From the NCBI GenBank assembly GCA_037043015.1, contig CM073321.1, positions 36,124,101 through 36,188,100 of the forward strand: 64,000 nt of DNA, given 5' to 3'. Below the pieces are notes generated by a model that made no database searches, was not told the origin of the DNA, and saw nothing but the letters and a program-made list of their open reading frames with translations. The position numbers were made by a program, and so were the translations under genes. Shown here one piece after another: positions 1 to 33,025 of the stretch. This DNA is from Bryum argenteum (taxonomy: Eukaryota; Streptophyta; Bryopsida; Bryales; Bryaceae). Numbering within the stretch: position 1 is the first letter of the stretch; every line of letters starts with the position of its first letter.

Positions 1-2187
1 TCTCCCTATTCGAGGACGTGAGTAACTCACGGTGTCAGGTCGATGAGTTTCATCTTCAGCACCAATGGGAACATCAGCCTTACGTTTCCTGGAACCAAAA
101 ATCTGTGCCCCTTCCAAGTGGGCGTCACGCGTACAGTAAGCTTCTGTTTTAGGGAAGTCCATAACTGCCTTGTTGAGGCAAGATGGATTGCCGAATCGAT
201 TAGCCCAACGTTGAGGAGTAAAAAGACGCTGACGAAGTTCTTCTACGGATGGTCCAGAACCACTTGCAGCGTCTTTGTTGAATTGATGGTAGCCGACCAC
301 TTGGAGGAAGGCCCGAACGTAGTCGTTAACGGCTGCGACGTAGAGATCCCTACCCTTATTGCCATACGCTTGCAGCCACTTGTTATGGATTTACTCCGCA
401 AGATTATATGAAGGCATCTCTCCGAGTTCTTCGGCCGAATATTTTTTTTCCAGCAATGTACAATCGTATTAAGACTTTATTCATAATTTAGATTTAGACT
501 TAATACAGATTCACAGTGTATAAACCCACATGAAAAATCAACTGATAATATATATTATTAAAACAATAACTGTCAATTTCTTTGGTACTATCATAACATT
601 CGAGAAGCTACCGTAGAGCATGTCATAAGCAAAGATACCACAAAAATTGAATACTTACCATTTCCATAAATCCACCCCATTGTCTGTATCTGAAGTGCCA
701 CTACGCAAGCCAATGACCTAAGTGTTCTAAACCAACTTCGGAGGTGGCCTTCGAGGATGCCCACCATGCTCTTATAACCCAATATCGGGTCTCTGCCTCT
801 TCCATGGTGCGCGCATCCTTGTACTGCTTACACAGAATCCGGTGTTGGCCTTGCAATTCGGGCACAATGTATTGTTTCGTATGTTTCTCAAGGGACTGAG
901 TCCAATGAAAATAACATGTGCATTCGCGGCCTTCCATGGGGACAGCAGGGTTTCCAGAGCCGTAGATGATGCACACAACGTTCCAGTTAGCTTGGAAACT
1001 ATCAGCCATAAATCCCTCAAACTGCGGCTTAGGTACTCCGTTCCTTGCCATCACATGATTAAGGTTATTCCAGAAGATGAGTTGAGCATCTTTGTCCTCT
1101 GACTGAAAATCACAGCATGCAATGGTTATAATGTGTTGGTAACGTGAGTCGTACAAGTGGCAGGCCATGGTGGTCCAATCCGTAACGCGTTTGACATGGT
1201 CAAACATCATCCATGCGTGGGAGAGATTTCCTCCAGGCTGCATACGGCAAACCAGATCAACACCGCTACCGGGGCCGACCTCCGACATTTTGAAGATGAA
1301 GACTTTCTCTGATTCGTCGCCTTGGCCAGGGAACATGTTGCGTTGCACATATGCCCAGTTGCTGAGACCTCTGAGCTTTGTAATCCCATCGAGAATGCGA
1401 TACCTACGCAAGTACTTGGAAGTGTAGATACGATTGCGCATGCTGTGAGAGTTTAACTCTTTGCATTGTTCAAAGACAGGTTCTAGCTGCTGAAGAGAAA
1501 GATTGCCGGTTTCGGGGTCACCTTCGTCACGGAGAAGTAAGTTACCTAACAAGTCTTTGCTGGTTTCCATAACTATTTTGGAAACGGTTGCGTGAGGGTT
1601 ACGCTCAACATGCTCTTCTAGTAACTCATCTATTTTTTCCGTACACATCTATAATCTCCAACTTTGACAGGATGTTCGTGTGTTCCTATATGGACACATG
1701 CACGCTCTTGACAATCTTCTCCAAGTACATAGAAGATTTTTACAGAACAAGGCGCAACACAAACAGGAGGTTGTTTGCAAAGCTTACAGACCAACGTCGA
1801 GGTGGGCGGGGGCGATCCGCCTACTGGGAAGGGGTCTTTGGTAATGCCTTCAAACTCCACATCGTTCACTCCAGCGACTCGATCAGGTCGTTGCAAGAAG
1901 TCGCAGTTTGGGTTGTGGCACTGTAGTTGTCCTACACAGTTCAAGTATCGGAAAGACAACCCTTGCGTATTGCTGATGTTGGTGGTCATCGTCCTAGTCC
2001 ACACGTGACTGTCGTACCGTTTATCCATCCCCTCCATGGACTTCGCGACCTTGTGAGTTGCAGACGGAAGAGTGGGCGGAAAGATGAAGAGTACATCGCC
2101 ATTGAATGACGGAGGCAAGAAAGATACGTTGACAGTGCGGATGGTTTTGAAATCAATTTTTTTGAGGAGAGTCTTGCTATTTGGCAT
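1..2187 (-). pseudogene. MULE-like transposase, decayed, runs off left edge
   Basis: Minus-strand coding remains of a Mutator-like (DDE) transposase. The N-terminal part (2187-1630) has a Cys/His cluster (CHNPNC, CKLC, CVHIGTHEHP) like the DNA-binding fingers of this group. The body (1648-701) has ACCDF with acidic residues, then FMADSFQAN as a likely second Asp, and CYFHW, the C-x2-H signature after it. The two parts are one base out of frame across an A-run near 1640. A TAG lies at 703-701, after which the frame stays open to a good donor (GTAAGT) near 657. A minus-strand open stretch from about 440 to base 1 (IHNKWLQ, WANRFGNPS) reads as the next exon and has an in-frame TAA near 394. The plus-strand open frame at 43-411 is its shadow. 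The family call is by pattern and the details are uncertain. Confidence 0.5.
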
Positions 2188-2217
2188 TCTAGCGAGATTG
2201 CAGAGGGATGGAAGAAT

Positions 2218-2799
2218 TTATTTGGGTTTTACAATTTGCGATGAAAGTAAAGAAGGAGGGGTGGCTCTTAGATAGTTATCCCTAACAGGAGGTGGCAATG
2301 GAATATCAGAGGTCAGACGACATGGTTGCAGAGGAGATTTCTTCTCGGCTTCTGATGAATCCGATATGTCAATAGTGACTTCCAGACCTGGTTCGACTTT
2401 GACACGAGTAAGAGCTGGAGCAACCGTGGAGATAGTAGAAGAACTACGTGGGGTCAGGAGAACTGTTGAGGCGTTCATGATGGACTCCATTAAGCCGTAG
2501 AGGCGATACTTTCCAGCTCTAAGCTTCCAGATTGTAGTATTATTTTCTAGGATGATTGGATCTACGACCATGGAGTACTGAACATGATTAGTATCGGGTT
2601 CTAGAACTTCTCTCTCTAACCACAGTGAAGATGCATCGTAGCCAAATCGAATTCCAAGCCACGATGCAGTGATCTCTACGACACCTTCAAGCCCTACGGA
2701 CATGCAAATAGGAACAAGTGCTCCCTGTGACACAATCTCAACGATGTTTGCAGCAGTGGGTTCAGCAGAGGAGGAAGCCATGACGTGCGAGAGGAGCAA
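2218..2799 (-). CDS. Hypothetical protein next to the MULE-like ORF, SUMO-type motifs
   Basis: Open frame of 193 aa, not recognised. It ends 31 bp before the transposase-like ORF on the same strand, so it may be an upstream ORF or exon of the same element. The N-terminal two thirds look globular (LWLEREVLEP, KYRLYGLMES). The C-terminal part holds VKVEPG, which fits the sumoylation consensus, followed by EVTIDISDSSEAE, which looks like a SUMO-interacting motif with an acidic/Ser tail. It is then basic and proline-rich. These motifs are short and could be chance. The first of two nearby Met codons was taken as start; the second is 6 residues on. Confidence 0.4.
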   Translation of the reverse strand: MLLSHVMASSSAEPTAANIVEIVSQGALVPICMSVGLEGVVEITASWLGIRFGYDASSLWLEREVLEPDTNHVQYSMVVDPIILENNTTIWKLRAGKYRLYGLMESIMNASTVLLTPRSSSTISTVAPALTRVKVEPGLEVTIDISDSSEAEKKSPLQPCRLTSDIPLPPPVRDNYLRATPPSLLSSQIVKPK

Positions 2800-3292
2800 C
2801 GAGCATCGACACTGGATGTGAGAAAAGGATACATACTAGGTATGATGCAGACTATAAAAGAAAATTGGTAGTAGGAACTTCTAGTGAAGTAAATAAGATT
2901 AGGAGAGTGAATAAATCAGACAATTACCATAATGAAGATTAAATATTGTATACCTTTAGGCAATTGTAATTAGTTTCATTATTGTGCAACTGTTGATAGT
3001 ATCAAAATTGGAAAAGTGACGGCGGCCGTCACTGTGAGAGCATTTGTATGCAAATTCAAAAAATAGATTAGCATCTCATGTCAAAGACTGTCACAATTGG
3101 CAAACCATGAGCCGTCATAGTTGTTGCGATAATTTATGATGAAGTGCGCAAATTAGGTTAGGGGGCGGCTTGTAAACTTTGTTTAAATAGGAGTAGGATG
3201 GCGAGATGGTCCTTTCCTTTGTTCGTTTTGTTGGTGTTGGTAAGGTATTGAGACGGTACGATCTGTGTCCTTTTGTTTAGAGTCTTGACGTT
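2800..3292. promoter_or_regulatory. Divergent intergenic region with a TATA-like box
   Basis: AT-rich 493 bp between a minus-strand ORF starting at 2799 and a plus-strand gene starting at 3293. TTTAAATA at 3182-3189 lies about 100 bp before the plus-strand ATG and is a reasonable TATA candidate. No clear box was seen for the minus strand. GACGGCGGCCGTC at 3018-3030 is a GC-rich palindrome. Transcription start sites are not known. Confidence 0.25.
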
Positions 3293-4013
3293 ATGGACGC
3301 GGTGAGCTTGGGGTCTGAGAGATCCAATGAGAGTGTGCCTAAGAAGAAGAAGAAGAAGAGAGGGGGTACTCGTTTTAGTAATACGAAAGCGCGCAAACAA
3401 AGTGCATTGCGAAAGGTGGGTGCGTCTAGGTCGAGTGGAGATGAGAGAGGCCCTACTGATTATGATCTGAACGATGATGAAGTTGGGCCCCAGTATAGGC
3501 GGAATCTGAAAATGCGGTCGATCAATCTTGACACAGTGATCGAGATTAACGAGAAAGACACTGTTGAAGATGGGAACGAATTTAAGAGATTTATAGAAGA
3601 GCAGGAGCGCGGTAGAAGTGGATCGACATCTAGCGAATCTCTATGTTATGACACAGGAGGTGATGAGGTTGCACAGGATTCTGAGAGGCAGGTACGGTAG
3701 TATTCTTGAGTTTTTGCTATTAAAATATTGCAGTTTGAGTTTAATGAGTTGAATGTTTGTCTACTAGGGTGATGCCGACGAAGGTCCCAAGGACGATGAA
3801 ATAGATGATCTAAGTTTTGACGGTACGGAGAAAGATTTCAAGGACTGTTCTAAAAACGAGGAGCAGATGGACCAAAAGCTGAAGTTGGTACATGTTGAAG
3901 AAGATGATGATACCACTGATCGTACCTTAGAGGAGGACGTAAATGACATGACGTTTTTTTTAAGTGTCATGAAGGAATCTGGGCACATTTTAGCATTCAC
4001 GTCCATAGATTAG
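3293..4013 (+). CDS. Small acidic nuclear-type protein, two exons
   Basis: Exon 1 is 3293-3691 and ends CAG|GTACGG. Exon 2 is 3768-4013 after CTACTAG. The 76-bp intron is phase 0 and the joined frame gives about 214 aa. Residues 16-24 are PKKKKKKRGG, a strong nuclear-localisation candidate. The rest is acidic and Ser-rich (DLNDDEVGP, EEDDDTTDRTLEEDVND), probably disordered with helical parts. I do not recognise a family. An upstream TATA-like box, clean splice sites and no internal stop support a real gene, in contrast to most of the window. It could also be an accessory ORF of a mobile element. Confidence 0.5.
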
Positions 4014-4249
4014 ATATGTAGTTATGTTTGCACAATACGCCAATGTAGATTTCAATTAAGTATTGCTTCAGTAACAAAAATGTGACGTACTATTTAAAAA
4101 AAGGTCTGATTGGTTTTGATAATTATAAATTATGTCAGTTTTGACTGCGGGACAAGTTTAAAGACTCGTGAATAAGAGAGCCCTAGTATGATAGTATAAA
4201 GGATTGCAGGATATAACTCCTAGTAGGTACGGGTATACACGGACCTCCT
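4014..4249. other. Intergenic, AT-rich, no gene seen
   Basis: Short AT-rich spacer after the acidic gene; likely its 3' untranslated end. Nothing else is visible. Confidence 0.3.
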
Positions 4250-4732
4250 TGGTATCGGTAATGGGTTATTGGGGTTTCGGGGTATTGGGGTATCGGGGTA
4301 TCGCGGCGTGAAGCCCCAGCCCAGACAGCAGCGCCGTATAAGGGTATCCAGGTATGAAGCCCTAGCCCCGGCAGTAGCGTCGTTATGGGGTACCGGGGTA
4401 TGAAGCCCCGACCCCGGCGTATCGGGTACCTGTGGAGAGGCGTATGTGCCGTCTACCCGGGTGATGCCCTGCCCTCCCCGCCCCTGATGCCCTGCCCTAA
4501 CTCGTTGCGCATACCCGGGTGATGCCCTGCCGCGTATACCGCCGCGCATACCTGCTGATGCCCTGCCCGGCCGCGTATACCAGTTGATGCCGCCGCGCAT
4601 ACCCGCTGATGCCCTGCCCCGCCGCGCATACCCGCTGATGCCCTGCCCTGCCAGACATACCCGCTGATACCCAGTCCTGGCGCGCATACCCACTGATGCC
4701 CCGCCGCGCATACCCGCTGATGCCCTGCCTCG
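4250..4732. repeat. GC-rich minisatellite just upstream of an ATG
   Basis: Two kinds of imperfect short repeat. At 4250-4420 the motif GGGGTATCGGGGTAT alternates with TGAAGCCCC blocks. At 4447-4732 a 21-27 bp unit built on GCGCATACCCGCTGATGCCC recurs about ten times. The run stops 3 bp before the ATG at 4736, so it would form the 5' leader or promoter of the gene there. Long minus-strand open frames across it are products of the repeat. Confidence 0.6.
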
Positions 4733-4735
4733 TCC

Positions 4736-5119
4736 ATGTTGAAACCCTACCCTGCCCTGATCGCCCACCGTGTTCAAACCGCCTGCCCGCCAGTTCCCTC
4801 CTCCGCCATGCCTCCGTCCGCTTCCTCCCCGTCCGCTCAACTCCCCCTCTGGCGCAAAACTGAGAATAGGCAGGTGATGCCGGCTCCCCCGGCAAGTGAA
4901 CCTGAGGAATTTCGGAAGGAGATGACAATGCAGCAGGACGAGGAGATGGCCATGCGGCGAGAAGGAGAGGACGTTGAGAAGGAGTTGGAGAATGTGAGTT
5001 TCGAATCTAAGTCAAGCATTTTTTCAGAGTTTAACAAGGAATACGCTCTTCAATACACTCTTGGGGTAATAATGAAGACTCATGCAGAAAACGAGGCGTG
5101 CTTCGTTACAGCATTCAAG
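4736..5119 (+). CDS. Exon 1 of a two-exon gene with an 8.7-kb satellite-filled intron
   Basis: Exon 1 has a Pro/Ser-rich start, then EMTMQQDEEMAMRREGEDVE (acidic, helical), ending ACFVTAFK at AAG|GTTAGA. It is 384 bp, exactly 128 codons, so the intron is phase 0. The partner exon is 13775-14086. A later Met at 4808 could also be the start. The product, about 231 aa, is not recognised. The acidic-then-basic layout is like that of the gene at 3293-4013, but I cannot show homology. The pairing of exons over 8655 bp is inferred from matching phase and splice sites. Confidence 0.4.
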
Positions 5120-5332
5120 GTTAGAATCATCTCCTTCATCTTCTACTAAATCTAGTACTTGTAATTATATAAGATTAGTTTGTGTTGTGTCTCACTAAGA
5201 TTTTAATTTGAAGCGAAGCAAGGGGGAGTAGTTAGGGTTTATATTACATCAACCGACCAGTCGAGGTACTGTGTCCATCGGCGCGCGCAGTCTGCCTAGG
5301 ATCGTGAAAGTTCAGCTTGTACTATCTACCTG

Positions 5333-8242
5333 GGTTCGCGACGGTTCTGCTCACCCTGTTGGTTCTTCTTGTTCAGTCGACAGACTTATTTTTTGCCGAA
5401 CCTAACACCTTGTTTGCCGAATTCCATAGGCAGGGATCTTGAGCTCGTCCTGATGCTTCTGGTTGTCTTCTCGGCTGGGTTCGTGAAGGCCGTGTGGGTC
5501 CTTCTTGTGCATGTGAATTATTTGGTGTGAGTTGGGGCCTTTTCTTTTGCCGAATCCATCACCTACCTTCCAGATATTCCTCGACGAAGCTCTGGGTTCA
5601 AGATGGTTCTGCTCGCCCTGTTGGTTATGCTTGTTCAGTGGACGGAATTATTTTTTGCCGAATCCAGCACCTTGATTGCCGAATTCCAAGGCTGGGATCA
5701 TGAGCTCGTCCTGATGCTTCTGATTGTCCTCCTGGCTGGATTCCTCAAGGCCGTGTGGGTCCTGCTTGTGCATGTGAATTTTTTGGTGTGAAAAGGGGCC
5801 TTACTTTTTGCCAAATCCATCACCGACCTTCCAGACATTCGTCGACGAAGCTCTGGGTTCACGATGGTTCTGCTCGGCCTATTGGTTATGCTTGTTCACT
5901 CGACGGGCGTATTTTTTGCCAAAACTAGTACCTTGAATGCCGAATTCCAAGGCTCGGATCATGAGCTTGTCCAGATGCTTCTGGTTGTCCTCGTGGCTCG
6001 GTTCGTCAAGGCTGTGTCGGTCCTGCTTGTGCATGTGAATTTTTTGGTGTCAATGGGGGCCTTATTTTTTGCCGAATCCATCACCGACCTTCCAGACATT
6101 CGTCCACGAAGCTCTGGGTTCAGGATGGTACTGCTCGCCCTATTGGTTATGCTTGTTCACTCCATGGACTTATTTTTTGCCGAATCCAGCACCTTGATTG
6201 CCGAATTGGAGAGGTTGGGATCATGAGCTCGTCCTGATGCTTCTGGTTGTCCTCGTGGCTGGGTTCGTGGAGGCCGTGGAGGTCCCGCCTGTGCATGTGA
6301 AATATCCGGTGATAATAGAGGCCTTCTTTTTTGCCGAATCAATCACCTACCTTGTAGACATTTGTCCACGAAGCTCTGGGTTTGCGATAGTTCTGCTCGC
6401 CCTGTTAGTTAAGCTTGTTCAGTCGACGGACTTATTTTTTGCCTAATCCAGCACCTTGTTTGCCGAATTCCAGAGGTTGGGATCATGAACTCGTCGTGAT
6501 GCGTCTGGTTGTCCTCGTGGCTGACTTCGTGAAGGCCGTGTACTTCCTGCTTCTGCATGTGAATTTTTTGGTGAGAGGTGGAGCCTTTTTTTTTTGCCGA
6601 ATCCATCACCTACCTTCCAAACATTCGTCGACGAAGCTTTGGGTTCAGGATGGTTCTGCTCGCCCTGTTGGTTCTCAATGTTCAGTCGAGAGACTTATTT
6701 TTTGCCGAATCTAGCACCTTGATTGCCGAATTCCAAGGCTGGGATCATGAGCTCGTCCTGATGCTTCTGGTTGTCCTCGTGGCTCGGTTTGTGAAGGCCG
6801 TGTGGGTCCTGCTTGTGCATGTGAATTTTTTGGTGTGAGTTGAGGCCTTTTTTTTGCCAAATCCATCACCTACCTTCCAGACATTCGTCGAGGAAGTTCT
6901 TGGTTTGGAATGGTTCTGCTCGCCGTGTTGGTTATGCTTTTTCACTCGACGGACTTATTATTTGCCTAATCCAGCACCTTGATTGCCGAATTCCAAGGCT
7001 GGAATCATGAGATCATCTTGATGCAACTGGTTGTCCTCGTGGCTGGGTTCGTGAAGGCCGTGTGGGTCCTGCTTGTGCATGTGAATTTTTTGGTGTGAGT
7101 TGGGGCCTTTTTTTTTGCCGAATCCATCACCTACCTTCCTGACATTCGTCGACGAAGCTCTGGGTTCGAGATGGTTCCGCTCGCCCTGTTGGTTATGCTT
7201 GTTCAATCGAGAGAATTTTTTTTTGCCGAATCCAGCACCTTGATTGCCGAATTCCATAGGCTGGGATCATGAACTCGTCCTCATGATTCTGGTTGTCCTT
7301 TTAGCAGGGTTCCTGAAGGCCGTGTGGGTCCTGCTTGTGCATGTGAATTTTTTGGTGTGAATGGGGGCCTTTTTTTTTCCCAAATCCATCACCTACCTTC
7401 CAGACATTCGTCGACGAAGCTCTGGGTTCAGGATGGTTCTGCTCGCCCTGTTGGTTATGCTTTTTCACTCGACGGACTTATTATTTGCCTAATCCAGCAC
7501 CTTGATTGCCGAATTCCAAGGCTGGGATCATGAGCTCGTCCTGATGCTTCTGGTTGTCCTCGTGGCTGGGTTCGTGAAGGTCGTGTGAGTCTTGCTTGTG
7601 CATGTGAATTTTCTGGTGTAAAAGGGGGGTTTTATTTTTGCTGAATCCATCACCTACCTTCCTGACATTCGTCGAGGAAGCTCTGGGATCGGGATGGTTC
7701 TGCTCGCCGTGTTGGTTCTCCTTGTTCAGTTCACAGACTTATTTTTTGCCGAAACAGCACCTTGATTGCCGAATTCCAAGGCTGGGATCATGAGCTCTTC
7801 TTGATGCTTCTGGTTGTCCTCGTGGCTCGGTTTGTGAAGGCCATATTGGTCCTGCTTGTACATGTAAATTTTTTGGTGTGAATGAGGGGCTTTTTGTTTT
7901 GCTGAATCCATCACCTACCTTCTAGACATTCGTCGACGAAGCTCTGGGTTCTGGATGGTTCTGCTCGCCGTGTTGGTTATGCTTTTTCACTCGACGGACT
8001 TATTATTTGCCTAATCCAGCACCTTGATTGCCGAATTCCAAGGCTGGGATCATGAGGTCATCCTGATGCAACTGGTTGTCCTCGTGGCTGGGTTCGTGAA
8101 GGCCGTGTGGGTCCTGCTTGTGCATGTGAATTTTTTGGTGTGAGTTGGGGCCTTTTTTTTTGCCGAATCCATCACCTACCTTCCTGACATTCGTCGACGA
8201 AGCTTTGGGTTCGAGATGGTTCCGCTCGCCCTGTTGGTTATG
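5333..8242. repeat. 262-bp satellite array, first block (about 11 units)
   Basis: Head-to-tail units of about 261-262 bp. Recognisable starts at GGGTTC..GATGGTTC occur at about 5333, 5594, 5855, 6117, 6378, 6640, 6902, 7163, 7425, 7688, 7947 and 8208 (the last one partial). Each unit carries TTTTTTGCCGAATCC twice (about 107 and 155 bp apart), the palindrome TCGTCGACGA, and TGTGCATGTGAATTTTTTGG. The units are diverged from each other by scattered substitutions. Open frames of 60-120 aa recur in phase with the unit on both strands and are artefacts. Confidence 0.9.
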
Positions 8243-8394
8243 CACAAGCTGGACAAACACGGCCTTCACGAACGCAGCCAAGAGGACAACCAGAAGCATC
8301 AGGACGAGCTCATTATCTCAACCTATGGAATTCGGCAATCAAGGTGCTGGGTTCGGCAAAAAATAAGTCTCTCGACTGATCAAGCATAACCAAC
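8243..8394. repeat. Inverted 152-bp piece of the satellite unit at the CACTA border
   Basis: This piece is the reverse complement of part of the 262-bp unit, starting CACAAGCTGGAC and ending AGCATAACCAAC. It follows directly on a forward unit ending GTTGGTTATG, so the junction is a head-to-head flip. It abuts the left terminus of the CACTA element. Confidence 0.8.
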
Positions 8395-8718
8395 CACTAT
8401 AAGAAACCTGCGTTTTTAGTGATGTTGTAAATGATGTCTATAAAGACAACGTAGACATTAATTCGGATGTCTTATAGACGATAAGACATCCTAGACAGCT
8501 CAGATGTCTATGCAGACATCTTAATAGACAGGAAGATGTCTTAAAGATCGAAGATGTCTTAAGGTAATTTTGGAAGGGTAAAAAGTGTGCCACGTAGGTG
8601 CCACGTAGATGACACATCAGCTTGAATTCAACGGGCAGTGCCACATGGGGATGAAATTCATAATGATGTGGAATTTTACATGGTCCCACGAAAGATGACA
8701 TGGCGGCGCCAGAATCCA

Positions 8719-8816
8719 ACGTGGCATGCGGGAAAATCCAACGTGGCACGCGGGAAAATCCGACGTGGCACGCGGGAAAAGTTGACGTCGACGCGGGAAA
8801 ATGACGTGGCATGCCA
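8719..8816. repeat. Short tandem repeat inside the CACTA element
   Basis: Imperfect units of 20-25 bp around GACGTGGCACGCGGGAAAA, about four to five copies. This creates open minus-strand frames that should not be read as genes. Confidence 0.7.
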
Positions 8817-10537
8817 CGTTAGCATGTTTTGGAGGTTTTATGCTTCTATCATGATATTTTTAGACATCAGTTAAGACGACTTAAATGTCTTGCAAAACAT
8901 TTTAAATGTCGTACAAGATGTCTTGCAAGACGTATGCAATGTCTTACAAGATATCTTAAAAGACACTTTGTATGTCTTATAACATGTCTCCAGTGCGTAG
9001 AATGATGTTTAGGTTGATGTCCTTCTTAAATTTGTGATGTTTGCTTGGATGTTTGTAGCAACATCCCGTAGGACATCAATGTAAACGTTTTGTGTTAAAC
9101 ATAATGTTTGCAACAATGTTACTATTGATGTTTTCTGTTCATATTAAAGGACATCTATGATGACATTTTTAAATATTTATATTGTAATCAGATCTGTAAT
9201 CCATAGACGTCTCACATAACATAAACTGTAAACACTGTCACGTCAAAAAGTTTGAGTCAAACATATATTGCTTAAGTCATTAAAACCTCAGATAACACAA
9301 AACTAGACTATTAACTAATACGTCTGTCAACAACTACGATATACTACGCACCCACAATTTGAACTCCGGAAGCTCCTCCACTACCATCGCTTGTTGTCGA
9401 TACCGGTATGGTCATGTGCATGTCCCGCCGCTACACATGTTCAATAAGCCAATATCAGCTGCATTTAAAGAAGGGTTTGTAAAGGTAAAAAAATTATGAT
9501 TTAATTCCATTTAATTGCACTACCTAGGTTAAGATGGTTTACTTCCTAACCTCAAGATATCGACACAGTTAGACATTCTTGCAAACATCTGCTTAGACAT
9601 TTCTTCAGACATCCTTCTAGACATCATTAAAAACAACGTTATAGACATCTATGCATACATCTGTTTTACTCACCTACAAGCACGTATGTCGCTTCATTTT
9701 TTCTTCGCGGCCTCACATCGTATTTCGCTGCCCCACCCTCATGTCCCACCCTCCAAAACAGAAATTCCATCAACACAATTAGACATCTTCATAGACATGT
9801 TGTAAGACATCTTGAAGACATCATCATAGACATCTTCCACAACAAATCAAATACTACAAGTGCTACAGTAGGGTTTCTTGTACATGATGCTTTTGAAATC
9901 CAGTTCCTCTTAAGTAGCAAATCTTAGCCACATGAAGAAGGAAACCACTACTCTTGAGAGCTACTAGATTTCTACAACTACTATTCTCTTATTGTAGTTA
10001 ACAATCATTCTAAAATTGAATAGAAACAATTTTGAAATCCTCTATACTTTAAACACTAACTCTTTGGAAAAACTAAGGCAAGATTGAGCTTTGTAATTTC
10101 ATTTAAAGGTCTCATGACCTAACTATGGCGGCGGCAGCAAACCCTAACCACATGAAGAAGCAAACTTTAGCCTCTACACTCTAAACACTAACTCCTTGAA
10201 AAATGAAGGCACAAATGAGCTTTATGCGGCCTCTAATTCTACTTAAAGGTCTCATGACCTAACTATGGCGGCGGCAGCAAACCCTAGCCGCCTCTGTTCA
10301 TCTACTGAAGTCGATGAAAATCATCTCCGTAGATGATTATGGATGATGTCGTAGATGTCTTCTTCGACATCTTCATAGAAATCATGTTAAACATTTTCAT
10401 GAACGTCATCTTAGACATCCCTGCAGATATTATCAAAGACATCTGATGACATCTTCAGAGTTTCAACTACAACACGTTAATCATAAAAGGTTTTTTGTTT
10501 TCTTCCACAACAAATCAAATACCAGATGCTTTAAAGT

Positions 10538-10650
10538 TCTTTCCACAACAAAGCACGTATTGTAAAACATAGAGTCTTCCACAACAAAGCACGTATTGTA
10601 AAACATAGAGTTTCTTCCACAACAAAGCACGTATTGTAAGACATAGAGTT
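10538..10650. repeat. Three tandem copies of a 36-45 bp unit in the CACTA interior
   Basis: The unit TTCCACAACAAAGCACGTAT plus TGTAAAACATAGAG recurs three times; a nearby copy reads TTCCACAACAAATCAAATA. About 400 bp before, the block CTCATGACCTAACTATGGCG is also duplicated (about 10111 and 10251). Confidence 0.75.
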
Positions 10651-12037
10651 TTTTCCAAAACAAATCAAATAATCTTTATTGATAGAAAAGTGTGGAATCA
10701 CAGTTATGAGACTATAGTCTCGAATGGTGATAGGCTCTCCTTCCAACTCTTAACTACCTTTTATTTCTGCCCTAACTAACTTTCCAACTAACTTTCCTAA
10801 TACTATATTAAATAGCTACTTTCATAAACTCATATCTCTTGTAAATTTGCTTCAATTTGTATAATATTGGTAGTTGATGATAGAGTAATGTATAAACTTG
10901 CCATTGGACTATAATAATCTAATCTATAAGTAATCAATAATATTTAGTTCCTTCTTGAAGTAAGCCAAAAAATACTGTTTATTGTTTTTATTTTCTTTTT
11001 ATATTTTTTTTAAGTATTCGAGGATTAAGGGTTATCAGAGATAGAGCCTAATCAGAGACCCGCGCCAATGGAGGACAAGCAGTAAGAGAAGAAGTTGACA
11101 TTATTCTTAAGAGACCCTTAAGTACTACCGCTTTTCGATAAATGACGTCTAGGAGGATGTCGTGCAAAACATCTTCATAGACATCCCGATGTCTACGCGG
11201 ACATTCATGCCTGACCGTAGTTATGGTAAGTTGGACATCGTGTTAGACATCCGACTAGATGTTGCATGACTTGTCAACTGGTCCGACGTGGAGATTTTGT
11301 TGCCATGTAGATAAAGCGTTGTAAATAACTTTTTTAATCTATGTCCACACTTTTTTTGAGGATTAAATATCCACGAAACTACTTTTACTTCGAAATTCTA
11401 TTTTTTGGCACCATTGTTATTTTACAGATATAATATTTTTTAAATATTTAAATATTTTTAAATCATAAAAAAATTACAGAATTATAATATTTCAGTTTAT
11501 TTTAATATAATAAAAATTTACAAAATATATTTTTTATTGGAATATGATTTTTTATTTTAATATTATTAGAAAATAGACCAATGAAAAAATAGTGAGAATA
11601 GCCTGAAATTAGTATTTTCAATATTGCCATGTCACATAATGATTTAACATATTATCAAAAAAAAAAAAAAAAAAAAATTGCAAAAGTGTGATGTTTTTTT
11701 CTACTTTTGAAAACCGCTGCCCATTCAACTACTCTTTTAAGATTAGAAATGCTTCTTACTCTGTCCAACATTAAATTTTGGTCGTTTTTACCTTGCTGGT
11801 CTAAAACCCTTGCCAACGTGGCAGTTTGATGTCTATCGGGATGTCTTCAAAGACATCCATGTCTTCACCCACATCTTTTTGTTTGGTGATGTCTTCATGC
11901 CCCTCCAATCCAAAATGTGCCCGTTAGACGTACAGACATCCTCCTCTCTTCGAAGACATCTTTTAAAGCAGTAAGACATCACAAAATACATTAGACATTA
12001 CACAAGACATCACAAAAAACAGGGTTTTCTTATAGTG

Positions 12038-13560
12038 TGGGTTCGGGATGGTTCTGCTCGCCGTGTTGGTTATACTTGTTCACTCCATGGACTTATTTTT
12101 TGCCGAATCCAGCACCTTGATTGCCGAATTCCAAGGCTGGGATCATGAGCTCGTCTTGATGCTTCTGGTTGTCCTCGTGGCTCGGTTTGTGAAGGCCGTG
12201 TGGGTCCTTCTTGTGCATGTGAATTTTTTGGTGTGAATGGGGGCCTTTTTGTTTTGGCAAATCCATCACCTACCTTCCAGACATTCGTCGAGGAAGTTCT
12301 TGGTTTGGGATGGTTCTACTCGCCGTGTTGGTTCTCCTTGTTCAGTTGACAGACTTATTTTTTGTCGAATCGAGCACCTTGATTGCCGAATTCCAAGGCT
12401 GGGATCATGAGCTAATCCTGATGCTTTTGGTTGTCCTCGTGGCTCGGTTCGTGAAGGCCGTGTGGGTCCTGCTTGTGCATGTGAATTTTTTGGTGTGAGT
12501 TGGGGCCTTTTTTTTTGCCGAATCCATCACCTACCTTCCAGACATTCATCGACGAAGCTTTGGGTTCAGGATGGTTCCGCTCGCCCTGTTGGTTATGCTT
12601 GTTCAGTCGAGAGACTTATATTTTGCCGAATCCAGCACCTTGATTGCCGAATTCCATAAGCTGGGATCATGAGCTCGTCCTGATGCTTCTGGTTGTCCCT
12701 TTGGCTGGGTTCGTGAAGGCCGTGTGGGTCCTTCTTGTGCATGTGAATTTTTTGGTGTGAGTTGAGGCCTTTTTTTTGCCAAATCCATCACCTACCTTCC
12801 AGACATTCGTCGAGGAAGTTCTTGGTTTGGGATGGTTCTGCTCGCCGTGTTGGTTCTCCTTGTTCAGTTGACAGACTTATTTTTTGTCGAATCGAGCACC
12901 TTGATTGCCGAATTCCAAGGCTGGGATCATGAGCTAATCCTGATGCTTCTGGTTGTCCTCGTGGCTCGGTTCGTGAAGGCCATGTGGGTCCTGCTTGTGC
13001 ATGTGAATTTTTTGGTGTGAGTTGAGGCCTTTTTTTTGCCGAATCCATCACCTACCTTCCTGACATTCGTCGACGAAGCTCTGGGTTTGAGATGGTTCCG
13101 CTCGCCATGTTGGTTATGCTTATTCACTCGAGGGACTTATTATTTGCCTAATCCTGCACCTTGATTGCCGAATTCCATAGGCAGGGATCTTGAGCTCGTC
13201 CTGATGCTTCTGGTTGTCTTCTCGGCTGGGTTCGTGAAGGCCGTGTGGGTCCTGCTTGTGCATGTGAATTTTTTGGTGTGAAAGGGGGGCTTTTTTTTTG
13301 CCGAATCCATCACCTACCTTCCAGACATTCTTCGACGAAGCTCTGGGTTCGGGTTGGTTCTACTCGCCCTGTTGGTTCTCCTTGTTCAGTCGACAGACTT
13401 ATTTTTTGCCGAATCCAGCACGTTGATTGCCGAATTCCAGAGGCTGGGGTGATGAGCTCGTCCTGATGCTTCTGGTTGTCCTCGTGGCTGGGTTTGTGAA
13501 GGCCTTGTGGGTTATGCTTGTGCTTGTGAATTTTTCGGGGTTCTCGTATGGGGTGGGCAG
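12038..13560. repeat. 262-bp satellite array, second block (about 6 units)
   Basis: Same unit as at 5333-8242, with starts near 12038, 12303, 12562, 12824, 13085 and 13348, running out in a diverged partial copy near 13560. Forward orientation as in the first block. The CACTA element divides what was probably one array. Confidence 0.9.
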
Positions 13561-13774
13561 GGTCCTGTTTTAGACCGAATTATCAGATACTATATGCGAT
13601 TTGCTCTAGCGGGGTGCTGCTGGATTTTTCTTTTCTTAATTATGTTAGGCTTGGAATGTGTTTTGATGTGTAAATGCAAGAGATTTGTTTTAATATTTAT
13701 TATGTTTGTGAAGTTCTTTGGCTTTGTATAGTATCTAATATTTTGCATGGTGGTGCTTTTGTCTTGTATTGCAG
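13561..13774. other. 3' end of the large intron
   Basis: AT/T-rich sequence ending in TTTTGTCTTGTATTGCAG, a good polypyrimidine tract and acceptor for the exon at 13775. Confidence 0.4.
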
Positions 13775-14086
13775 GAATTGTTAAAGCCACTTGCAGTTCA
13801 TCCAGAAAAGGAATCTGATGCAGACAGCGACCTCTCCACTTTGAGAGACAAAAAGTTAGTTTACGTGGAGTCCCGTCGATTAGTAATACCCTTGTCTTCG
13901 GTTCCAGAAACTCCGCCTTCTCTCACCCCTGTCTGTCACACTTCACGTGTTGACGTTGATCGGGTTGTGATTAGCAAGCGCATTAAGAACAATGAGGCCA
14001 AAGCTTGGCGTATCCAAGAGAAAGAATTAGCTAGACTTGCACCCAGACGTTCTCCGCGACTTGCCGCAACGTTGAAATCTGCTTAA
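13775..14086 (+). CDS. Exon 2 of the large-intron gene, basic C-terminus
   Basis: Starts after TTGCAG in phase 0 with ELLKPLAVHPEKES and runs to a TAA at 14084-14086. The end is basic and Arg/Pro-rich (RLAPRRSPRLAATLKSA), possibly a nucleic-acid binding tail. It would join the exon ending at 5119. It ends 140 bp before the start of the methyltransferase-like gene on the same strand, so a shared transcript cannot be excluded. Confidence 0.4.
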   Translation, partial: ELLKPLAVHPEKESDADSDLSTLRDKKLVYVESRRLVIPLSSVPETPPSLTPVCHTSRVDVDRVVISKRIKNNEAKAWRIQEKELARLAPRRSPRLAATLKSA

Positions 14087-14226
14087 TTGTATCCATTGAT
14101 TATATGATATGTTTATCATATACTTCACTATACAAAGGTTTTAAATTTCTTTCTATATCTCTATGTTACTTTGATATCTTCTTATTCTATTTGTGCTATG
14201 TTGTATTCAGGTTTTTGTATCGTCAG

Positions 14227-17200
14227 ATGAACATAGCTCAAGATCAATCCGTCCAAGACGAGGAAGCCACACCAACTCCGCTTCATTCTCCACCAACTCG
14301 ATCTCTGGATGAGAATGAGCTCTTACATGACAGTGGTAGAAGTGCTCAAGACGTGGGCAACGCGGTTCTCAAGGAAAGTCCATTGGAAACTGACTGTCAA
14401 CTTCAACCCATGCACGATCACAATGGAGACGTCTCTCATTCTGAAGATGATGACACTCCATTGCCGGGAAGTGTCAACATCAGGATTGTCCACATGCCCC
14501 CTCATCTCCAAAACAAATATCCCTACTGGAGTGCAAATGAGATGCGAATGATTCACAAAAGTGATTCTATCGCCATTATCAACAGGTTACGATACAAACC
14601 TGTGAAGAAGTCTCGCATGCTAATTCCATTGTGTTGTCTTGTTTGTTATCCTAAGGTTCGACCTATCTCCGAACAAGACGTACGAAAGTTGGAGAATGAG
14701 TTTAACAAAGGCTATCGCGAAGGCGACCGGGTCATGTACGTTTCTCCCTTTGATAGGAAAGGAGAGAGAAGATGATTGACAACGGAGATGCAGTGTGGAC
14801 GAATCCACTTTGGAAATCTGCAAATGAAGAGTTTGAGAAGACGTTGCTGTTTGATCCGGATCTTCAACACTTGAGTGATAAGTACTTTTACGTGTACGAA
14901 GGTAACCACCGTGTTACGGCGTGGATGCGTCACATTGAAAGGTACCATAAGATGGATACATCGTGGGACATGTCCGTGGATTGTATCGTACTTGATGCAC
15001 AAGAAGAGAGCAACCTCCTGCTTGACGCTATGAACGACATAAACTGGTGAGTCATTCTCATATTTTCCGAAAACAATTTATATGTATTCTATATATCTTC
15101 AATATCTCTCGTGTTTCATCCGACTATGCAGGTCTACTGTACATGACCATGTCGAAGACGGTTTGTGTGCGAAATTGCAGCGCGTGAGGAAGTTCGGAAA
15201 ATTGAAACTCAAGGATTTCAAGGATCTGATATCTCCTGAGGATTACAAAATTTGCAAGAACGCTAAGGCAAAAAAAGATACTTGGTACCCTGTAACAGTT
15301 GACGTTTTTGTAAAGTTCTTATACGCGGTAAGTTGGGTTTAATGTGTCTCAAATTTGATTCTTTCTGTTCGGTTCTTTACACCTTATTAATGATTTTTAT
15401 ATGTTATACAGAGGAGATTAGCAAAAGCATCAGATAACGTTGAAACAAATTACTACGCCACCGTCCCAAAGGAGAAACAAACTGGACCCGGAGTATGGAG
15501 TGCCATGGATTATGCAATCAAGGCAGAAATCAAGTCGATTTGTGGCAAAAACTTTGACAAGATGGTCGCTGTGGTTAACAACAAACTTGGGAAAGTATTT
15601 GCGCAGGAGGTAAAGAAAGCACCCTTTTCCTATTTCACATGACTATACTTGTAATCATGTTTTATAACTTGATTCTTTCTGATGGATTTCATGTGCAGAT
15701 TTATTCCCATTACAGCAAGAACTTGAAACCCGATATGACAATCGATCGCTTACAAATGGTAGCTACTACCAATGTTCATTGCGATTTCAAGGGAAAGTGG
15801 CTCCAATGGTGGAACTCATCAGACGAAGTTCGACGATCTTTTCGCTTCCCTGATGAACGTCCAATGAAAGATAAAGCTCTGGTGGCATTTTTGCATCGCG
15901 CATCTCTTTGGGCACAAGTATCTTTCATTATCGTTACGTGTTGTTAAAGTTAGAGTTCATATGGTATTTTCATCTTTAAAATGTTTTCTTTTTTCACAGC
16001 TCGAGCATGCACTTCAAAGTGAATTGCAAAACTTGATTGACAACGAAAACCTCAACATTGAGTGGTCTAGTGTTGTCCTAAAGCCATCTGAGTATGTGGA
16101 GAAGTGGAGGTTGTTCTTATGGGACAAGGCATTCAACAACTATCTTGGTCCTAATGCAAGCCCAAAGTTCATCAAAGGCTCAGATCTTCAAAAGATTACC
16201 GGGGGCAAAGTTACAATTAAACGGCTTTTATTCCGATATGTTTCTAATTTACTCTTCAATATTAATAAAATTGGTACAACTTGTTCAATGTTCACTATCT
16301 GATTTGTTCACATTTTTGTACGTACTTAAAACAAGAGCTCGTTGCGAAGGGAGCATTAGCGTCGTTCTCCATTCCAATGGAGTTTGAGGACATTTCAGTC
16401 ACGAATGATCCCCGAAGCTTTTTCTCCACAGCCTAACAAGAGCGGTTTACTAACTCCCAATTGACGACCGGTGGATGGTTTCTGGAGTGCCACGACAACT
16501 ACGTGCACAAGGAGGAGAAGCATCTTCTTCGGAACCTCGCATCTAACCCAGCTAACTCTGCACCGATGGACATTGACGACGATGAAGATGACGACCTCTC
16601 CATTTTGCGAGTCGCACCTGATCCAAGCTCTTCTCCTTCTTCACCAGTTGCAGTGCCCAAGTCTCGTGCAAACAGGAAGCGATGCAACTCTGTTGCAGAG
16701 CCTGTTGTAGATCTTGAGCAAGAATCCGAAGAAAATGTTCCTCCCCCAGAAGACATTGTAGGGCCTGAAGATGCTGATCTGACTCTGGCTTCAGCGGGAG
16801 CCGCAAATAATACAATTCAACACGGTGCAAGATTGACTCAACTTTCTACAGGTGGACTTACGAATGCGGGGTCCCCACCTCAATCATTCACCGTTGACCA
16901 CAACTCGCAGCAGTCCTCACGTTGTCTCAGCCAGCCAATATTCGCCAGACGCCCTCTTCCGAAACCCAATCACATTGGTAGCAGCTCGTCGTCGAAAATA
17001 ACAGTCACTCTGCCAATGAATCTGGAGAAGGAGAACATTGGAGATTTGGTTCACCAGTCATCGAAGAGTGCAAAATGAGATTCGCAAATCCTAGATATCG
17101 TCGAGCACATCAAGAAGGTATTATTTCATACATTTGTCATTCATAATCTCCCTTATTACGTTTTGTACTTGTAAATCTATTAGCCACTATCTAATTTTTG

Positions 17201-18512
17201 ACTTGTACCTCAGATTGGAAAAGACTGTAAGTACCCGTGTTCGGCGATGGAGTATGAACCCAAGCATCCAGGGATTGATCTCATTTTTGCAGATGCTCCC
17301 GAGAACTTGCCTGTACCAGGTGTGTCTCCAACAGAAATTCCATCCTGGAACCGGCGTGACAAAACCTACTTTGAAAGCTTCTTCGTGTTTGCCGCGTATC
17401 ATTTGACCGACGTTGGAGCCATTCTTCTGATGCATCCAAAATATCGTAGAATCGAGCGTACTCTCGATTCCGAGTTCCATACATATAGTTTTTGTCTTGT
17501 TTGAGACTGGTGGGGATATAATCCCCTCCCTATGGCCTCTACGGTACCCAAACCGAAAGAGGTACGAAACATATTCTAGTTTCCAATTTCACAATTCATG
17601 GTTATTGCCTTCTATGCATTTGTATTAATGTATCTATACTTGTGTTTTGCAGACTCACTGCTTCCATATCAAAGTGTATGTTCGCAAAGAGTATGTTTCG
17701 AAGTTCCAAACTCGACAAGTGGCACACGCATACGCGGGTGTGGCAATCGTACCTGATGAGGAAGACCACCTCTGTAACTTTGCAGAGAAAGAAACCTTGT
17801 GTTATCGTCCAGACGGTACGCCGTGGCGAGGCTCACGAGAAAAGGAGCCCTCCTTCATTCAATGTTTCGTCGATTGTCTCACGGACGAGGGGGGTATAGT
17901 CTTCGACTGGAGCGCAAGTACAGGTAATGTTTCCATAGACTCTACATTAGAATCTGTTTCTACATTTCGCATTTTTAACGTGGGCTTTCGATTTTGTTAG
18001 ATGCATCTGTAATTGCTTGCGCGCGCTCCAACCGACACCTTATTGCTATGGAACCTGATGAAGAGATCTTTGATAGTGTACTTGCGAATTACAAGAATGG
18101 TCCTCCCGGTGATGAGGAAAGTGGAGAATCAGCCCCTCCCGCAGACTATGACTCTGACGAACCGGTCGTGTTGAAGCCACTAAAGTTCATTGGTGCGTAA
18201 TACCATCTTGTATTCTCTTTTACAATTTTAAATTACGCATTTACAAATCGGTAGGACTGACTTTCTTAGCAATTTTAGGATTGCAGGTCTGAAAGAGCGA
18301 TTGACTCGCAACGCTCATCTCTACAAAGTCCTCCATCAAAATTCATACTACCATCTTACGCTGAGCGTCTTGCTCAAGAGTTTGTTCAAGCTTCATCTCT
18401 CATTTTGTCTGACACTCTACGTCGACGTTATAGCAATAGTGTGCTTAAATTTATAGACTTTGAGGCTGATGAATGTGATCAGCACTTTAATGGTACTACA
18501 CCGTCTGCCTAG
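14227..18512 (+). pseudogene. ParB-like / N6-N4 DNA methyltransferase-like fusion, about 10 exons, broken
   Basis: Exons read: 14227-15046, 15132-15327, 15412-15609, 15699-15917, 16000-16209, 16338-17117, 17214-17561, 17653-17923, 18001-18196, 18287-18512. All introns are GT/AG, 75-130 bp. The N-terminal part fits a ParB-type fold: IRIVHMPPHL, then YVYEGNHRVTAWMRHI (the NHR motif), then VDCIVLDAQE with LLLDAMNDIN. A 200-aa acidic/Ser-rich linker (16460-17075) follows. The C-terminal part has the beta-class order of an N6_N4 methylase: motif IV-like IDLIFADAPEN, GAILLMHP, then motif I-like GGIVFDWSAST, and RHLIAMEPDEEIFD. DPPY is DAPE and FxGxG is altered, so catalysis is doubtful. Breaks: a one-base shift in a purine run near 14765, TAA at 16434, TGA at 17076 and TGA at 17502. 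The fusion is typical of bacteria and phages, so ancient transfer followed by intron gain is inferred. Confidence 0.6.
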
Positions 18513-19713
18513 TTTGTGATTTGTTTTCTGATAGGTACTGAACATGGTAGCGCCATTCATTTGTAGTTTACCATGATCTATTACTTACATACTATCTATA
18601 TGTGTTTTTCAATATATACGGTTTAATATTTTTAATTATCGTGATTATCGTTGATAGCTTATCCTACACTAAGTGCTTCAAGTATTATTATAAGTATCTC
18701 AATACTATGTGATCTAAAGCCATGCTTGCCTTTAATGGTGACGTCAGCCCTAATTTTGATGTATCTTCTTCAACTTTAATTTCAATGCATCAGTGTATGT
18801 AAATGTTTAAGTTCTAAACTCAATGCAGACGAAAAGTTTCAGAAGGTTTGTTTTTATTTTCCATTGGAGTGATTAAATCTTGCCATTGTTGGTAGGGGCT
18901 ATACTCCAGTATTTGTATAGCTCAGGATAGCGGCTTTAAGACACAATGCAACGCTCAAACGAGGTCAGAGGAATCAAACTCGGACCACTACAATGCCACG
19001 TGAAAATCTTCTTGTACACCTTACAAGGAGAGACGGAAAGACGACGTGTAGTTATAAATTTCAGATTATATAAACCGAAGCATTTACATATAATTCTGAC
19101 AAGTGTAATAGGAAATTGATGACGGCAGCCCTAATTAGTTTCTAAATATTAAAAACGGTAAAATAAACTTATTGATTACATAAAGGGCCATTCCAAATTT
19201 TGGTTTAGATTTTGTATATAATTTGAATTGTATAGGTTACACATGATGATGTCAGCCTATAATTTAATCAACTTCTATTTAAACTTGCAAATGTGGATTA
19301 TTTCTGAAATATTGTATGACCTCAATACCATGAAAATAAATGGATAAAGGACCTATATCCACGGTTTTGGGTACTTTTTTGCCTAAAAATGACCATTTCA
19401 AAAATTCAGAACCACCCATTTCATGGTAATATGGCTATTAACTTCTAATTTTTTTTTTTTGCAATGAGTGGTAAGAGGGTCTTGATCTTTCATGAAAAAA
19501 AAGAAAATCTGCCAATCACCGCTCTCCGCTCACACCGGTGCATTCCCCCACCTTTGCAATTCAGAATGAGATCCAAAGTATGCATTGGCATTCTTCTAGT
19601 GTCACCATTTGGTCCATAGAACCCTCATTAGAGCTCCACCTACAGAGGATGGTGAAGAAGGTGGTTTTGTCAAACATACTCATTATTACATCTCTGATGA
19701 TAAGATGCATGAT
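18513..19713. other. Intergenic, no gene seen
   Basis: AT-rich sequence with no convincing coding frame or repeat boundary. The last part (19538-19713) has a short open frame on both strands that is cut by the solo LTR; I do not recognise it. Confidence 0.3.
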
Positions 19714-31667: not shown

Positions 31668-33025
31668 TTTCCCGATTCAATCTGGATTTTCCACACGGCG
31701 TCACTAGAAGTGGGCGCCTTTACTTGACACCTCTTCCGGAAGAGTTGGAAGAAGTTGAAAGTGAGCAGGAGTTTGAAGCGCCGGAACCCGATCTCACCGT
31801 ATTCAGCGAGATACCTGAAGAGGTTGGAGATTACGATTACTGCTACGATAGTGACGACGAGATGGCTCGCGTCTATGGAGCTTCCCAAGGCCTTTGTCGA
31901 TTTTCTGGGGTGGTGGGCACCATTGAGTTGGAGGACTTTATTATTGAGTTTGGAGCCTGGTGCCATAGGCAATCAGAATCGCCGAGTGGGTGCAAGCACA
32001 CTCACTCTTGCAGATATGGGAGCTAAAGAGGAGGGTGAAGGAAGCTCTGGAGGAGAGAAGGGTAAGGCCGAGGTCACTTCAGCACTAGGCCCTTGTTTAA
32101 TCCTATCCTGTCATTTTTTGAAGTTCTGCGAGTAAACTATCAAGGTCAAAGACTCGACAAGATGTTGGAACTGCAACAATTTCAACTCAAAGACAAGGAG
32201 ACGTTTCGGGATGCTTATCATCGATTGTAACGATTAGTAGAAAGCAGTGAAGGCGTTACGGTTGCTCAAGCAATTAATTATTGGTACCTCATTCTTGATT
32301 CGGAGCTGAAGCAACTCGTGAGGGCCGGAGTTTTGAGTTTACCATCTGCAACTCCACCCACGTTGGAGTTCGTTTTTCTTTCTACTGATTTAATTGCAGT
32401 CAACTTGGCGAGAGAAAGGTCAGCCATGCCGATGATTAGTAGAGCTTCAAAGACTGCAGAGAAGGCACAAGTTTTTGCCAAAGTAGGTGAACCTGCCTTT
32501 GGAAGTCAACCTACAACGGACTCTAGGCCTAAACCACCTAGAGAGAAATATTGTTCTGGGTGTGGGGCATCTTCTCATCCAGCATCAAAATGTTGGATTC
32601 TTCATCCAGAGTTGAAACCAGCATATGCTAAGGCCCGTAAAAATGCAAGCAAGGACGAGAAAAACGAATCGGAGCAGTCTAAATCAAATGCTAGGCCATC
32701 CACGAAAAAGGTAGGCCAAGACGAGTCTCGGTTTAAGACAATTGAGGCCCAATTGGCTTCAATTGTGGCAGCGTTGAAGATTAAGGAGGTGTCTGAAGCT
32801 GAGCAAGGGCAAGCTCCATCGTATTATGGAGCTTGGGACGAGTCGTTTTGTGGTCTGGCAGAGGCAGCCTACGTTACAACTCGGGCTCAAGCTCACCAAG
32901 AGATACCACGTGGAGCTACCAGTGGCCTTGATCCACAAGTTGGAGAGGCACGACAACAAGTGAGACTTCCAGCATCATTTGTTCCTGGAGGACAAGGAGT
33001 CGGTTCCAACACATGGACAATATAG
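31668..33025 (+). pseudogene. Gag of the methyltransferase-bearing gypsy element
   Basis: An acidic leader (LPEELEEVESEQEFEAPEPD) is followed by RFSGVVGTIELEDFIIEFGA, in the position and style of gypsy capsid starts. A shift follows, then a helical capsid part (KMLELQQFQLKDKETFRDAY) with TAA/TGA breaks near 32230. The second block 32318-33025 holds the zinc knuckle YCSGCGASSHPASKCW (C-x2-C-x4-H-x4-C), followed by Lys/Ser-rich and coiled segments. Not functional as it stands. Confidence 0.65.

Follow-up and report, generated by a model that had tools for sequence, protein, structure and literature searches.

A probable Mutator-type transposon of the moss Bryum argenteum carries an accessory gene with a GNHR motif and a predicted methyltransferase fold

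The stretch of DNA analyzed here, 64,000 nucleotides from contig CM073321.1 of the moss Bryum argenteum (assembly GCA_037043015.1, positions 36,124,101 to 36,188,100 of the forward strand; hereafter the window), contains a ten-exon gene whose first exon encodes a GNHR motif of the type known from ParB proteins and whose later exons are predicted to encode a beta-class amino-methyltransferase fold (Table 1). An earlier note on this DNA, made from the letters alone, had described the gene as a ParB–methylase fusion of bacterial or phage origin that settled in this lineage. Our results indicate that it is almost certainly the accessory gene of a DNA transposon, which occupies the left part of the window and has a transposase-like gene toward its other end.

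Table 1. Positions of the features discussed in the text, in window coordinates unless a contig is named
Feature	Position	Strand	Remarks
Mutator-type DNA transposon (very probable assignment), in-window part	1..19548	+	right end is a common point in 17 of 20 sibling loci
Transposase-like gene, in-window part	704..2835	-	open reading frames (ORFs); continues left into L032 to about 6998
261-bp tandem array, left part	5330..8243	.	Tandem Repeats Finder (TRF)
261-bp tandem array, right part	12038..13535	.	a nested CACTA-like insert lies between it and the left part
Final exon of an additional fast-evolving open frame that closely precedes the gene	13775..14086	+	
Accessory gene, ParB-motif and methyltransferase-like	14227..18512	+	10 exons; pseudogene in the window copy
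Exons 1-5 of the methyltransferase-like gene	14227-15046, 15132-15327, 15412-15609, 15699-15917, 16000-16235	+	
Exons 6-10 of the methyltransferase-like gene	16322-17117, 17214-17561, 17653-17923, 18001-18192, 18287-18512	+	
ParB-like region of exon 1, VRPISEQDV...YEGNHRVTAW...CIVLDA	14656..15046	+	motif only
Acidic, low-complexity linker	16322..17117	+	exon 6
Motif IV region, IDLIFADAPENLP	17260..17330	+	
AdoMet-binding motif I region, GGIVFDWSAST / DASVIACARSNRHLIAMEPDEEIF	17840..18100	+	split by intron 8
Right terminal inverted repeat	19526..19548	-	inward reading GGGGAATGCAC.GGTGTGAGCGG
DTPF relative, first place	C4:20498239-20501589		
DTPF relative, second place	C4:20514889-20518235		
DTPF relative, third place	C7:9878370-9881718		

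A DNA search of the plant's own assembly (258.8 Mb, 25 contigs) revealed that the gene is multicopy, with 40 matches of 79-100% identity, a number that is a lower bound because 35 of 799 candidates were scored. The 20 best-matching siblings (ranks 2-21) were aligned with the window copy to give 21 copies, a set which, being drawn from the best-ranked matches, favors better-kept copies. Nine introns could be aligned in all 21, with the donor GT retained at 180 and the acceptor AG at 179 of the 189 sites (9 introns x 21 copies), and the proposed ten exons with GT/AG borders are thereby borne out; much of exon 1 is missing from sibling L024 and much of exon 10 from L015. Substitutions in the sibling alignment are enriched at third codon positions, and the gene is real. 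Chance ORFs are ruled out by this third-position excess together with the splice-site conservation, and recent bacterial contamination by the introns and the dispersed copies within large contigs, while the possibility that the exons belong to separate genes is countered by the Ceratodon purpureus protein M758_1G295400, in which both parts appear to lie within a single annotated protein.

The claim that the exons join in frame holds for the gene family and fails for the window copy. Sibling L027 is open over 1167 codons with no change needed, and all other copies carry stops or frame shifts, the minimum being one stop. The window copy is not in frame because one base is missing from exon 1 and another from exon 10 (compared with 14 and 13 of the 20 siblings, respectively), in-frame stops stand at 16434, 17076 and 17502, and both the GT and the AG of intron 5 are gone; it is clearly a dead pseudogene. 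A Pfam search with its own exon frames gave a single weak chance match.

The homology between siblings stretches far past the gene and stops on the right at a single point, window position 19548. This right end was recognized at the sibling loci given in Table 1, six of which (L022, L023, L025-L028) have the variant GGGGAAACCAC, and its terminal repeat had one match in the window and none in 100 shuffles. The left end, which starts with GGACGTAGCTACGGTGTGAGCGGAGAGCGG, lies 1476 bases ahead of window position 1 (L032 position 6524) and was located in the three elements traced that far; a one-ended reading of the right end, as a retrotransposon or a Helitron, was dropped because the left end had been found. 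The core GGTGTGAGCGGAGAGCGGTGA is common to both ends in inverted orientation, and the first dozen bases differ between them. Genome-wide, the left end matched at 352 places with 3 mismatches allowed, the right end at 224 with 2 allowed, and reversed control patterns at 0. Pairing was analyzed with 90 left ends of 0-1 mismatch (among 100 listed of 352) and 99 exact right ends (among 100 listed of 224; the exact pattern misses the variant): 44 of the 90 left ends had an exact right end in the element orientation within 30 kb, compared with 3 in the wrong-side control, and 41 of these 44 pairs were 13-26 kb apart.

Target-site duplications were sought in 12 elements, including 10 element pairs hand-picked by fitting distance before the full end count. 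Five have a perfect duplication of 9 bp and one a perfect duplication of 10 bp; two more have 9 bp with one mismatch and another has 10 bp with two. The transposase-like gene, inspected by eye, shows Cys and His clustered at the N-terminus, C..H flanked by acidic motifs, and a SWIM-like end with CxC..CxH, and it was found at no fewer than 39 further places beyond the window's with 90-95% identity (40 of 746 candidates scored). Mutator-like elements (MULEs) are marked by target-site duplications of 8-11 bp, and several of them have extra ORFs (PMC6446971). As the duplications of 9-10 bp in nine of the 12 elements fit this range, and terminal inverted repeats are present, the element very probably belongs to the MULE superfamily.

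The gene and the element ends were found to be linked. Among 35 gene copies (35 of the 40 gene rows, five short pieces adjoining counted places being omitted), an exact right end lay within 12 kb of at least 15; within 60 kb on the expected side, a left end accompanied at least 16 and a listed transposase at least 10, compared with 5 and 3 on the other side. These counts are lower bounds because the ends and transposases compared were partial sets and because the exact pattern misses the variant right end. It is nearly certain that the methyltransferase-like gene is an accessory gene of a DNA transposon; the earlier idea of an ordinary gene that had settled in the lineage is not supported, since it moves with a MULE-type transposon, of which it is the second gene.

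Two features of the genomic distribution stand out. On contig C10 (13680543-13681129), one pair of element ends is only 0.6 kb apart, which is probably a non-autonomous short derivative. Contig C1, with 44.1 of the 258.8 Mb (17%), holds 55 of the 99 exact right ends, 52 of the 90 near-exact left ends, 24 of the 40 listed transposase places and 27 of the 35 gene copies, about 3 to 4.5 times its share; it may be a sex chromosome or another chromosome with many transposons and little recombination.

Selection was assessed by the ratio of nonsynonymous to synonymous divergence (dN/dS) in nine pairs from seven few-stop copies, with stop and gap codons skipped. The ratio was 0.02-0.08 for residues 81-290, the ParB-like region (8 of 9 pairs finite, at dS values of 0.45-1.9, some of them close to saturation). 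In the middle it was 0.08-0.15 and in the linker 0.19-0.38; the methyltransferase region had 0.12-0.27, the C-terminal tail 0.11-0.28 and the N-terminal tail, comprising the first 80 residues, 0.32-1.16. Because these values are low, the protein sequence appears to have been maintained by selection during the spread of the gene. Such purifying selection, along with the introns and an altered but conserved motif, might also be expected of a domesticated single host gene that has lost catalysis and now serves as a DNA reader, which was the view of the earlier note; the presence of at least 35 dispersed places, the element ends, the target duplications and the dead window copy largely refute it here and leave it very improbable.

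In the same pairs, dS of residues 81-290 (0.45-1.9, one pair non-finite) was well above that of the methyltransferase region (0.19-0.33), and this difference between regions suggests mosaic copies or recombination between subfamilies.

The motifs by which the methyltransferase half had been recognized (IDLIFADAPEN and GGIVFDWSAST) are present, and the beta-class order, with motif IV ahead of the S-adenosylmethionine (AdoMet)-binding motif I, was confirmed in the sequence. Motif IV reads DAPE in 17 of the 21 copies, NAPE in two, HAPE in one and VAPE in one; DAPE is also found in all three Ceratodon proteins of the window type (P0001-P0003), and a further type, L061, has DIPE. The window type therefore has no catalytic (D/N/S)PP(Y/F/W) tetrapeptide, and the canonical DPPY is lost, as had been stated. 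Despite this change, dN/dS stands near 0.15.

Evidence for the fold came from several searches. The Pfam family PF01555, with a curated cut-off of 26.7 bits, matched 32 places in a six-frame search of the plant's own genome, two of them above the cut-off. A divergent relative of equal layout on contig C4 (L060), which reads FFYVWDGNHRLVAW, then DLIIIDTPF, then GDIVVDLTASTGAS, scored 32.3 bits (E=1.3e-7, profile positions 1-214 of 221) after its two domain exons had been joined by hand, and the Ceratodon relatives M758_1G295400 and KC19_7G101700 scored 30.4 and 35.0 bits (E=4.9e-7 and 1.9e-8), so that three relatives with the same layout exceed the cut-off. When the PDB sequences were searched with the L060 domain, the best matches were 5hfj/5hek (E=0.0011), and CcrM followed at E=0.049; we take 5hek/5hfj (M1.HpyAVI) and CcrM to be beta-class DNA methyltransferases. 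A PDB sequence search with a four-sequence alignment gave chance matches only (dynein light chains at 0.06, one receptor at 2.5). Among phage proteins, seven of the ten listed rows for the DAPE type were named methylases (240 records matched, best E 0.01), as were 12 of the 15 for the C4 domain of the DTPF relative (best E 2e-5 among 539 records). Profile comparison with hhalign of the DAPE domain and five phage methyltransferases gave 95.8% (E=8e-9), covering the motif I region only, and one reversed and 11 shuffled controls reached at most 10.4%. The phage proteins had been drawn from the best phage matches (six fetched, the unannotated L059 unused), a choice that favors a match and from which the Pfam and PDB results are free. 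Because of these Pfam, PDB, phage and hhalign matches, the predicted methyltransferase fold is in our judgment nearly certain, and its assignment to the gene family is firm.

Relatives outside Bryum were sought among 5.8 billion proteins, the best 7999 candidates by shared words being scored. The search returned three Ceratodon purpureus proteins with DAPE (M758_6G158200, M758_1G310400 and M758_9G084500; P0001-P0003), with 51-54% identity over 68% of the query, and the methyltransferase region alone retrieved the same three (1372 candidates scored). An L060-type query (6170 candidates scored) retrieved the full-length M758_1G295400 (P0004), which has DTPF and both the GNHR module and the methyltransferase, together with KC19_7G101700 (P0005), which has DQPY, and record P0006; only these Ceratodon relatives and P0006 were found among the scored protein candidates. 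The Ceratodon proteins belong to the same family as the window gene, the DAPE models and KC19_7G101700 beginning past the GNHR region. P0006, of 389 residues, is middle-domain-like and stops short of the methyltransferase part. In Bryum, the DTPF relative occupies three places (Table 1) that are 98-100% identical and are recent duplicates or themselves mobile; the two on C4 are in opposite orientation, 13 kb apart. A Ceratodon gene is 81% identical to the DTPF relative over 64% of the query, and these low-copy relatives could be domesticated host genes.

Low-copy relatives of this kind, with three near-identical DTPF places and a Ceratodon gene at 81% identity, would suit a host gene that was captured as a passenger, as in Pack-MULEs, and has no role for the element. 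Neutral decay would be expected of a passenger, yet dN/dS is far below 1 among the dispersed copies and most splice sites are retained; moreover, elements that are built alike repeatedly have the gene next to the transposase, and the DAPE type occurs in Ceratodon as well. We consider such a capture quite unlikely. As for the ultimate origin, enzymes of phages and bacteria are the closest proteins known, and a prokaryotic source of the methyltransferase half is likely on this resemblance, as proposed before. A scan of IMG/VR with the family alignment gave 185 pattern-matching stretches and no relative, both patterns being from the middle domain, and thus no viral source was found.

For the N-terminal half, the sign of a ParB/sulfiredoxin fold is a (D/E)GNHR motif, of which GNHR is common to four aligned sequences (P0004, L027, L020 and L060). 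Phage, plasmid and PDB sequence searches with the ParB-like region gave nothing relevant. Comparison by hhalign with SopB, P1 ParB and YbdM was negative, a test that lacked power because the control pair YbdM-SopB was negative too; SopB and P1 ParB found each other at 97.1%. The Pfam ParB family PF02195 had one weak match in the genome, at C4:16718650 (L062), which is an unrelated place and was rejected; the same search was positive in 11 of 14 control genomes. Of the ParB claim, the motif stands, being largely conserved, and the domain was not recovered in the Pfam, PDB-sequence and underpowered profile tests. We regard a ParB-like fold as somewhat more likely than not and treat the ParB label as a lead.

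In our favored interpretation, the gene is probably an accessory to a large cut-and-paste transposon of the Mutator type, usually 13-26 kb long, and encodes an element-directed protein. The predicted protein of about 1170 residues would consist of a short fast-changing tail, a strongly conserved DNA-binding-like GNHR module and a helical middle, followed by the acidic linker and the beta-class amino-methyltransferase fold with DAPE as the catalytic tetrapeptide. It would act on the DNA of its own element, the N-terminal module recognizing that DNA and the methyltransferase fold binding the double helix, perhaps with AdoMet, and without methyl transfer or with a much altered one. The outcome would be that the element stays accessible or that its transposition is guided, a role comparable to that of VANC in VANDAL MULEs. 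An anti-silencing or DNA-targeting role without standard catalysis is proposed tentatively. We infer the loss of catalysis from the sequence, and a non-catalytic DNA reader seems a good guess. More doubtful is a transposon-borne, sequence-guided epigenetic tool, in which the ParB-like module would be joined to a rebuilt DxPE site that makes a new modification or serves as a methyl-sensing anti-silencing reader, the family keeping the near-canonical DQPY and DTPF.

The element-directed role without standard catalysis is ranked first, and next to it stands a catalytically active DNA amino-methyltransferase whose motif IV is unusual and which might mark its own element with N6-methyladenine or N4-methylcytosine, as N4CMT does on the transposons of bdelloid rotifers. 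The AdoMet motif I region is well conserved, the tetrapeptides DQPY (P0005) and DTPF (P0004) of relatives that share the layout are near known motifs, and purifying selection spans the whole domain. On the other side, DAPE and the DIPE of L061 have no aromatic residue, which is found in all of the motifs named for known families (SPPY, DPPY, NPPY, DPPY/F and DPPW; PMC8885841), and the D itself is gone in four of the 21 copies. Active writing is accordingly rated by us as unlikely.

Several results weigh against the favored interpretation. The DAPE type falls under the PF01555 cut-off, with 19.2 bits (E=0.0013) for L027 and 14.5-18.3 bits for P0001-P0003; because it does so while relatives of the same layout exceed the cut-off, it is best described as a putative divergent relative of PF01555 and not a canonical member. 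Two AlphaFold2 models were poor (predicted local distance difference test, pLDDT, of 28 and 40), and Foldseek with the second gave nothing significant, M1.HpyAVI in third place at E=2.1 being unused as evidence. GNHR is intact in six of the eight sibling stretches compared, L011 having GNHC and L014 SNHR, and Pfam detected no PF02195 in the open copy up to E=10 or in Ceratodon P0004. Apart from poly-A, no 8-mer at three or more per kb is common to more than three of ten tandem arrays upstream of the gene, and thus no common binding site was seen in them. Three of the 12 elements, the window's included, have no target-site duplication, and no MULE or SWIM domain was detected by Pfam in the transposase (three window ORFs to E=1, four pieces to E=5).

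This last result, together with the differing first dozen bases of the ends, could mean that the element, though of the cut-and-paste kind, belongs to KDZ, for instance, or to some undescribed superfamily. Two traits seen by eye in the transposase, CxxH amid acidic motifs and the SWIM-like end, are typical of MULEs and argue against such an assignment. The duplication length, 9-10 bp within the 8-11 bp of MULEs, likewise argues against it (PMC6446971), and we regard another superfamily as improbable.

Comparison with known systems places the MULE-type element and its accessory gene close to several of them. VANC, the anti-silencing protein of the VANDAL MULEs, binds motifs within tandem repeats in non-coding parts of the element that carries it, and reduces their DNA methylation (PMC5735166). 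The moss element resembles Arabidopsis VANDAL in being Mutator-type, with an extra gene beside the transposase and dynamic non-coding tandem repeats (PMC5735166). Unlike the moss protein, VANC has no methyltransferase or ParB-like part named in the available portion of PMC5735166, the two being compared by description only, and the moss arrays have no shared motif. The bdelloid rotifer enzyme N4CMT, a member of PF01555 said to be without eukaryotic homologs, is similar in being a permuted amino-methyltransferase of bacterial origin with introns and a link to transposons (PMC8885841). N4CMT, with its SPPY and chromodomain, belongs to the host and acts against transposons (PMC8885841), whereas the moss gene is carried by a transposon and has DAPE and a ParB-like motif; the moss family would add a further eukaryotic case to PF01555. 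Retrotransposons with C5 cytosine methyltransferases have been described in dinoflagellates and Klebsormidium, with purifying selection in the latter (PMC5890265); they too are mobile elements with a DNA methyltransferase gene, and the moss element differs in its N6_N4-type fold and in being a DNA transposon. With the bacterial and phage beta-class enzymes, which are its best sequence matches, the moss protein shares the order of motif IV before motif I; the matched phage and PDB enzymes have about 230-370 residues, far fewer than the moss protein, and those from phages have DPPY- or DLPY-like motifs.

Accessory genes of MULEs, methyltransferases on transposons and eukaryotic amino-methyltransferases of bacterial origin are all already known. 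In the open-access literature, with most subscription papers outside its reach, we found no description of an N6_N4-type methyltransferase fold on a eukaryotic cut-and-paste transposon or of such a eukaryotic family, in agreement with the earlier note. Should the protein prove to steer or read modification on the element that encodes it, the tractability of mosses would make it possible to test directly how transposons use tools of bacterial origin to manipulate host silencing. In addition, the split between DAPE/DIPE and DTPF/DQPY within one family is a natural test of the capacities of the fold after losing its canonical active site.

The region upstream of the gene is rich in tandem repeats. 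Of 18 siblings covered (out of 20), nine (L012, L014-L016, L019, L020, L025, L026 and L028) have, like the window, an array of at least 500 bp just upstream of the gene, and 15 have some tandem repeat there. The array units are unlike between copies, with periods from 192 to 851 bp, and because the unit length differs in each copy, the array seems to be rapidly renewed. In the window, the 261-bp array contains a nested insert at 8395-12037 with CACTA-like ends (CACTATAAGAAA / TTTTCTTATAGTG). The further open frame between array and gene was compared in 13 copies with 312-318 bases: it has one stop in 12 of them and none in one, and the other frames have 4-11; the window's stop lies at the frame end, and no clear third-position excess was seen. 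This frame may be a fast-evolving third gene of the element or a remnant.

Elsewhere in the window, a Gypsy-like retroelement lies at 32231-40006. Its C5 cytosine methyltransferase domain, at 34042-34602 (PF00145, E=7.5e-9), closely precedes a reverse transcriptase (PF00078, 35239-35901), and an integrase core follows at 39524-40006. Assuming that these parts belong to one element, their arrangement resembles that reported for Klebsormidium (PMC5890265).

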